Positions 1,604-4,463 of a stretch of DNA of 64,000 bases are shown here, piece by piece. Under the pieces are notes generated by a model. That model ran no database searches, was not told the origin of the DNA, and was given only the letters and a program-made list of their open reading frames with translations. Each line of letters opens with the position of its first letter. Position 1 is the stretch's first letter. The stretch is from Bradyrhizobium sp. (GTDB lineage Bacteria > Pseudomonadota > Alphaproteobacteria > Rhizobiales > Xanthobacteraceae): the NCBI GenBank assembly GCA_030681365.1, contig JAUXWH010000131.1:1-64000 (forward strand), given 5' to 3'. The position numbers and the translations under genes are program-made.

Positions 1604-1972
1604 TCACGGCTGATCCACGATGGTCGGACGCGATACGACGTAAGCCGCACAGGCCAGCAGCAGCGCCGCGACGCCGGCGGCCAGCAACAGCGACGGATTG
1701 GCGCTGTACCAGAACGCAAAAAATCCGAACGTCATCCCCGCGCAGGCCGTGATCTTGGCCGGACGCGAGATCGCCCCCTCGGAGCGCCAGTCGCGCAGGG
1801 GTTTGCCGAATTGGGGATGATGGAGCAGCCAGGCTTCAAGACGGGGTGACGAGCGCGCAAAACAGCCTGCGGCACCGATCAGGAAGATCGTCGTCGGCAA
1901 CAGCGGCGTCACCGCGCCAATCACGCCGAGCGCGACCAACACCCATCCCAGGCAGAAGTAGAAAACCCGCAT
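1604..1972 (-). CDS. YbaN/DUF454 family small inner-membrane protein
   Basis: LGWVLVALGVIGAVTPLLPTTIFLIGAAGCFARSSPRLEAWLLHHPQFG signature. Confidence 0.85.
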   Translation of the reverse strand: MRVFYFCLGWVLVALGVIGAVTPLLPTTIFLIGAAGCFARSSPRLEAWLLHHPQFGKPLRDWRSEGAISRPAKITACAGMTFGFFAFWYSANPSLLLAAGVAALLLACAAYVVSRPTIVDQP

Positions 1973-2092: not shown

Positions 2093-2251
2093 ATCTGGCG
2101 ATGACCTATCACGCCGGTCCGGCAGCCTCAACCGCTGGCAGTGGATTTGGTCCGGTAAACGACATTTGTTCCGCCGGCGCCACCCCTTAACATCGGCCGA
2201 ATCCGTGCCTATACTGATGTTTCCATCAACGCAACGAAAGGAGGTGATCCA

Positions 2252-2296
2252 GTGTCTCTTACCAAGCGCTGTCACCTCGCTGGGATCGCCCGCTAG
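2252..2296 (+). CDS. Putative 14-aa peptide VSLTKRCHLAGIAR
   Basis: GTG start 7 nt after GGAGG; TAG stop at 2294-2296; below ORF-track cutoff. Confidence 0.4.
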   Translation: MSLTKRCHLAGIAR

Positions 2297-2357
2297 GCTC
2301 TAAACGGCCTGGCATCGGGGCGCTCTCAGCCCTGGACCAGCGAGTTCAAAAGTTGGA

Positions 2358-2389
2358 GCGCGACGGGAGCCATCCCGTCGCGCTTTTTT
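2358..2389 (+). terminator. Rho-independent terminator
   Basis: GCGCGACGGGA-GCCA-TCCCGTCGCGC-TTTTTT. Confidence 0.9.
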
Positions 2390-2421
2390 ATTGCCGGTTC
2401 ATCGCCTGGAATTTGCAGGGA

Positions 2422-2876: not shown

Positions 2877-3272
2877 ATGCTTTATGCCCTCCTGGCCTAT
2901 CACGTTGAAACCGAGGTCACGTCCTGGACGCCGGAGGAAGACGCGGCGCTGATGGTCGACTTGCATCGGGTCCATGACCGGCTGCACCAGGACGGACGGC
3001 TCGGGCCGGCGGCGCGGCTGGGGGCGACCAAAAAGGCCCGCACCCTGCGCGGCCCGGGCGCCGGAACCGTCATCGATGGTCCGTTTGCCGAGACCAAGGA
3101 GCAGTTGCTGGGCCTTTATGTCCTCGACTGCGCCAGCGAGGAAGCCGCCATCGAGGCCGCCCGCGACCTGCGTCGCGTCAATCCCAGCGCGGTTTACGAG
3201 ATCCGCCCGGTGCAGCTCTATCTGCCCGGCGTGCCGTTTCCGGTGACGGAGGCTGCGGGCGACGAGGGGTAA
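2877..3272 (+). CDS. YCII/DGPF-domain protein
   Basis: MLYALLAYHVE...GTVIDGPFAETKEQLLGLYVLDCASEEAAIEAAR, DGPF motif. Confidence 0.85.
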   Translation: MLYALLAYHVETEVTSWTPEEDAALMVDLHRVHDRLHQDGRLGPAARLGATKKARTLRGPGAGTVIDGPFAETKEQLLGLYVLDCASEEAAIEAARDLRRVNPSAVYEIRPVQLYLPGVPFPVTEAAGDEG

Positions 3273-3632: not shown

Positions 3633-4463
3633 ATGAGCGATCGTGATCGAAAACCGCGCTTTCAGCGCGGAGGCGGCAAGGGACCCGACAAAGGGCGCCA
3701 ATCCGGCCGCCGGAGCGGCGGGCGCGACCGCGAGGCCAGCCCCGACGGGGCGGTCATTCTATACGGCTGGCACACCGTGGCGGCGGCGCTGGCCAACCCG
3801 CGGCGCCGGATTCGCAAGCTGTGGCTGACGGAAAACGCCGCAAGGCGGCTGGCCGACGACCGGATCGAGCTGCGCGTCACCCCGGAAATCGTGCGGCCGG
3901 ACCTGATCGACATCAAGCTTGGCCCCGACGCCGTACACCAGGGCCTGCTGGCGGAGGCCGAACCGCTGGATCAGCCCGATATCGGCGACCTGCCGCAGCA
4001 GGGAATCGTGCTGGTGCTCGACCAGATCACCGATCCGCACAATGTCGGCGCCATCCTGCGCTCGGCGGCGGCCTTCGCGGTCAAGGCCATCGTCACCACG
4101 GCGCGGCACAGCCCCGAAGCCACAGGGGTGCTGGCGAAATCCGCCTCCGGGGCGCTGGAACTGGTGCCAATGGTGACCGTGACGAACCTGGCGCGCGCCC
4201 TGAACGAGCTGAACGACCAGGGTTTCATGACCGTCGGGCTCGATAGCGAGGGCAGCGAGGATCTCGGCGCGATGACGTTGCAGCAGCCGCTGGCGCTGGT
4301 GCTGGGCGCCGAGGGTCAGGGCTTGCGGAGATTGACCCGCGAGACCTGCAGCGCGGTGGCGCGGCTCGACATGCCCGGCGAGATCAAGAGCCTCAACGTG
4401 TCGAACGCGGCGGTGCTGGCGCTTTACATCGGTGCCAGCAGGCTCGGCCTGATGGGCAAGTAA
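3633..4463 (+). CDS. rlmB: 23S rRNA (guanosine-2'-O-)-methyltransferase RlmB / TrmH family
   Basis: LVLDQITDPHNVGAILRSAAAF ... LVLGAEGQGLRRLTRETC ... SLNVSNAAVLALY SpoU motifs. Confidence 0.93.
   Translation: MSDRDRKPRFQRGGGKGPDKGRQSGRRSGGRDREASPDGAVILYGWHTVAAALANPRRRIRKLWLTENAARRLADDRIELRVTPEIVRPDLIDIKLGPDAVHQGLLAEAEPLDQPDIGDLPQQGIVLVLDQITDPHNVGAILRSAAAFAVKAIVTTARHSPEATGVLAKSASGALELVPMVTVTNLARALNELNDQGFMTVGLDSEGSEDLGAMTLQQPLALVLGAEGQGLRRLTRETCSAVARLDMPGEIKSLNVSNAAVLALYIGASRLGLMGK

Follow-up and report, generated by a model that had tools for sequence, protein, structure and literature searches.

The window, a stretch of 64,000 nucleotides from a Bradyrhizobium sp. draft genome, carries a compact transcription unit at 2187-2390 on the forward strand. 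A DUF454 protein gene (1604-1972, reverse strand) and a SpoU-family rRNA methyltransferase gene (3633-4463, forward strand) flank it, a YCII-like protein gene named from the scan of relatives' copy lies at 2877-3272 (+), and a Phd/YefM-type antitoxin gene (PF02604) followed by a PIN-domain gene (PF01850), that is, a toxin-antitoxin pair, occupies 914-1587. An earlier note had described a free-standing transcript unit with an exceptionally long Shine-Dalgarno (SD) sequence, a plausible -10 (TATACT near 2210), a GTG-initiated 14-codon ORF and a very strong intrinsic terminator. This description holds throughout, with promoter, ORF and terminator predicted as follows:

2187-2215 (+): promoter, TTAACA-17-TATACT, equivalently CTTAAC (-35, 2186-2191)-18-TATACT
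2222-2390 (+): predicted transcript of ~165-170 nt, its start inferred from the -10 and its ends from promoter and terminator
2236-2252 (+): extended SD of 17 nt, complement of the 16S tail, invariant in 40/40 aligned copies
2241-2278 (+): predicted SD-masking hairpin, GAGGUGA (SD):UCACCUC (ORF) and CAGUGU (start codon):GCGCUG
2252-2296 (+): 14-codon ORF VSLTKRCHLAGIAR, GTG start, TAG stop at 2294-2296
2276-2283 (+): CUCGCUGG, invariant, complementary to 2337-2344
2334-2344 (+): GGACCAGCGAG, invariant in 40/40 copies, most of it left unpaired by the consensus fold
2358-2389 (+): intrinsic terminator with a GCGCGACGGG stem at 2358-2383 (2355-2386 by the scan) and T's at 2384-2389; stem pairs covary

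The centre of the unit is GAAAGGAGGTGATCCAG at 2236-2252 (+), which over 17 nt is the exact complement of the 16S tail CTGGATCACCTCCTTTC, as had been claimed. Such a complement is expected by chance 7e-6 times in the window and 5e-4 times in the genome, and the second-longest match to the 16S tail complement in the rest of the window is 11 nt. The draft genome from which the window comes (68% complete) has a single copy of the 17-mer, and no 16S end was seen in it; the reference end, ...GCGGCTGGATCACCTCCTTTCTAAGG, is taken from the 16S gene of another genome of the same genus, and the 17-mer is exactly complementary to it. The GTG at 2252 lies 7 nt past GGAGG and its G is base 17 of the complement, so that SD duplex and start codon overlap. 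From promoter to terminator the unit spans ~168 nt, as read from sequence only, and the promoter pattern CTTAAC...CTATATT is found again in most Bradyrhizobium copies.

The element recurs across the genus. The SD plus NTG start motif GAAAGGAGGTGATCCANTG is present in 166 of 196 Bradyrhizobium genomes, with GTG in all copies listed, while a reversed-pattern control gave 0 matches in the same 196 genomes; the conservation is thus beyond chance. A tRNA-Gly gene lies 103-232 nt upstream on the opposite strand in 39 of the 41 loci examined, and the terminator is present in all 41. This recurrence, together with the near-constant tRNA-Gly neighbour, argues that the unit is not a product of chance. 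Among 38 Bradyrhizobium copies the 17-mer is 100% identical and codons 5-14 are invariant (30/30 positions, including all ten third positions), whereas codons 3-4 show amino-acid changes; identity is 61% in the loop past the stop and 62% in the pre-terminator spacer. GGACCAGCGAG is likewise kept in the two less closely related copies, L002 and L003. Since codons 5-14 are without any base change and codons 3-4 change residues, the alignment indicates that in Bradyrhizobium it is the RNA, and not the peptide, that is under selection.

The earlier note had implied that the unit was unrecognised, which proved wrong: it is an already described element, the Bradyrhizobium copy of rreB. The rreB transcript is reportedly a 165-nt mRNA of the Bradyrhizobiaceae with a 17-nt SD, a GTG start and a 14-aa polypeptide; its RNA is said to co-sediment with 30S subunits, to be weakly translated and to be stabilised upon loss of the start codon. 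A counterpart of 18 aa, rreR, reportedly occurs in the Rhodobacter/Roseobacter group, and additional sORFs complementary over 16 nt or more are said to exist in Caulobacterales, Rhizobiales, Rhodobacterales and Rhodospirillales. The title and citation of the rreB study (Hahn et al. 2017, RNA Biol 14:1353, doi 10.1080/15476286.2016.1256534) stand in the reference list of PMC7298713, and a table in PMC7217052, which cites Hahn et al., has a 14-aa, 1.6-kDa B. japonicum peptide (SP-1) and an 18-aa Dinoroseobacter shibae peptide, both unstructured. The window unit has the 17-nt SD complementary to the 16S 3' end, the 14-aa GTG ORF, a predicted stand-alone mRNA of ~168 nt from promoter to terminator and the conservation in 166/196 genomes of the Bradyrhizobiaceae genus Bradyrhizobium; no difference from rreB was found except the strain.

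The unit also has a relative in Rfam. At gathering thresholds a scan of the window returned tRNAs only and no rRNA, and a lax scan aligned 2228-2384 with the full length (1-159 of 159) of RF01867, the Caulobacter sRNA CC2171, at 51.7 bits (E 2.7e-10). As this is below the gathering cut-off of 75 bits, the unit is not filed as a curated RF01867 member; it is a distant, below-cut-off relative. Identity with a catalogued Rfam family is what the earlier note had said would refute it, and the result comes close to that: the relationship stands, but the score stops short of the cut-off. VSHC-type relatives can exceed the cut-off (L004, 93.0 bits; L060, 75.5 bits), and Rhodobacterales relatives match weakly (L069, 32.6 bits; L088, 30.9 bits). 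When antisense 16S ends that include this 17-mer were searched at E up to 1, CC2171 was not matched, so the RF01867 match does not come from the SD alone; the SD and GUGUCUC probably supply much of the score. At E up to 0.001, RF01867 was found in 34 of 143 genomes of the class, and Caulobacter vibrioides was the sole positive among 14 control genomes. An RF01867 sRNA is also listed in a study of Mesorhizobium huakuii (PMC5596092).

Like the window unit, the RF01867 consensus starts with the same SD and GTG (cAAcaAucGAAAGGAGGUGAUCCAGUGUCUCAU) and, aligned over its full length, ends in a terminator. It is typed as an sRNA though the consensus opens VSHCH..., and its closer members have ORFs of 21-25 codons, compared with 14 in the window unit. 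The consensus points to an SD and a start codon of the rre type in CC2171. On this comparison CC2171 may be a small mRNA rather than an sRNA, and it probably belongs with the published small mRNA.

How far does the family extend? A scan of named genomes for the SD followed by GTG returned at least 119 stretches; the majority of those listed come from Alphaproteobacteria and have ORFs of 14-26 codons, and a terminator is usual, typically ending ~145-200 nt from the SD start. Nearly all relatives have an ORF of 11-39 codons 3' of the SD, and VS(H/R/D) N-termini recur. The exact motif (start codon GTG, ATG or TTG) is present in 44 of 389 genomes of the class, and in a scan of the phylum all 53 positive genomes fell in the window's own class, with no positives among genomes of other classes. 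By these scans, relatives are common within Alphaproteobacteria and seldom occur outside this class. A few MAGs labelled Betaproteobacteria, Deltaproteobacteria, Acidobacteria or Phycisphaerales also bear the motif, and some of these copies may reflect chance, misbinning or transfer. Three Betaproteobacteria-labelled loci (L078, L135, L142) and two labelled Phycisphaerales (L039, L089) combine an extended SD and a short ORF (VRD...G, VI...); a terminator-like hairpin follows in two of the former and one of the latter, and L135 gives a weak RF01867 match (33.7 bits).

In Rhodobacterales the element sits between a Vut_1 (PF02592) transporter gene and a gene for an RF-1-domain (ArfB-like) protein, for example in L038, L066, L108 and L123. 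Of 25 measured loci, 21 have the start of the ArfB-like gene 17-139 nt past the terminator stem (<60 nt in 13); in some loci the start is just 17-36 nt behind the stem, which leaves scant space for a promoter of its own. A downstream gene common to all lineages was sought and not found, the neighbour being YCII, DUF188 or ArfB-like by lineage. The rreR element of the Rhodobacter/Roseobacter group shares the extended SD, the small ORF and a terminator at a similar distance with the window unit, but encodes an 18-aa peptide of the VSRVILERGVGT type, shows little complementarity to the SD within its ORF and, unlike the window unit, lies near an ArfB-like gene.

The predicted fold of the free RNA has a z-score of -6.8, with an unpaired probability near 0 in the SD core. 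Within it, GAGGUGA of the SD is masked by UCACCUC, an anti-SD copy inside the ORF. The consensus fold contains 48 pairs, 11 of which are changed on both sides, these lying in the apical hairpin and the terminator; no covariation is possible in the SD stem because both strands are invariant in Bradyrhizobium. The 3' end of the 16S rRNA extends ~14 nt beyond helix 45, so the 17-mer spans the entire free tail plus three helix bases. Opening the 17-mer costs a computed 13.3 kcal/mol, and the duplexes are worth -9.5 (7-nt SD), -24.3 (14-nt single-stranded tail) and -31.0 kcal/mol (full 17 nt), comparisons that leave aside ribosomal proteins and co-transcriptional folding. Among 82 dereplicated loci, 34% show complementarity of the SD to the next 78 nt at p<0.05, versus 13% with a reversed SD, a signal due mainly to VSHC-type relatives. 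Compared with shuffled sequences, the complementarity within the ORF is of marginal significance in Bradyrhizobium (p 0.045-0.08); it is strong in many relatives and missing in most Rhodobacterales copies.

A second pairing was considered on account of strict conservation: CCAGCGAG, part of GGACCAGCGAG, is the perfect complement of the invariant CUCGCUGG. This alternative is energetically disfavoured, with a pairing probability of 0.00 in the free RNA, 0.007 with the SD blocked and 0.06 with the 30S footprint blocked, and this two-state switch is thus without thermodynamic support.

In light of these properties, what might the unit do? The likeliest reading is a small mRNA under ribosome control, which docks tightly on the 30S subunit and initiates poorly. 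The free RNA would hide its SD in the strong hairpin, and pairing along the entire single-stranded 16S tail would pay both for opening that hairpin and for docking; we infer that the SD is over-long since it must open its own mask. The duplex, reaching into the GTG, would hinder entry of the start codon into the P site, so that initiation would be slow and the mRNA would stay in 30S complexes, and its stability and small translational output would then follow the state of the ribosome. The main function would lie in the RNA and its 30S binding, not in the peptide sequence. As a whole, we think it highly probable that the unit is an rreB ortholog, distantly related to CC2171, acting as an mRNA with a masked SD that docks on the 30S subunit and with an RNA-borne function. 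The earlier note was also right about a leader-peptide-like ORF and about a possible dual mRNA/sRNA role. More tentatively, and with a rather low likelihood in our estimation, rreB, rreR and CC2171 would form one alphaproteobacterial class of small mRNAs sensing 30S availability through a masked SD complementary to the full 16S tail; the RNA would change between two folds on 30S docking and, in Rhodobacterales, possibly tune an ArfB-like ribosome-rescue gene through read-through.

The peptide could instead be the product, with the extended SD merely serving expression of a functional 14-aa protein. The short ORF behind the SD in nearly all relatives and the recurring N-termini speak for this, but codons 5-14 contain no synonymous change in the 38 copies, codons 3-4 change amino acids and the peptides differ strongly between orders, and we regard it as improbable. 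Slightly harder to credit is a role as a sponge for 30S subunits, by which the RNA would reduce the free 30S pool or buffer initiation throughout the cell. The SD covers the whole free 16S tail in a duplex of about -24 to -31 kcal/mol, and putative trapping of individual 30S subunits is plausible; with one copy per genome, however, titration needs transcripts near the number of 30S subunits, and the predicted fold of the free RNA masks the SD. A single gene is unlikely to titrate the 30S pool in bulk.

Control of a downstream gene by terminator read-through has in its favour the short distance to the ArfB-like gene in Rhodobacterales, and trpL-type leader-peptide attenuators likewise have a short ORF followed by a terminator. 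In the window, however, the next recognisable gene (YCII-like, ATG 2877) lies almost 490 nt past the very strong terminator, and no regulated gene stands directly behind the unit; its SD is far longer than in trpL-type attenuators, and downstream genes vary by lineage. We therefore consider such a leader very improbable. That the 17-mer is a chance match or an antisense remnant of a 16S gene end might be supposed from the minus strand, which reads as a 16S tail. The identity stops at 17 nt, the window contains no Rfam rRNA, and the genus-wide recurrence of promoter, ORF and terminator as a unit rules this reading out, leaving it a negligible likelihood.

Thus, the element is real, conserved and already known. 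To rreB, the present analysis adds the link to CC2171, the RNA-level constraint indicated in Bradyrhizobium and the predicted masking of the SD by an anti-SD within the ORF. These may serve better annotation of the family and yield testable predictions for the control of initiation by an over-long SD.
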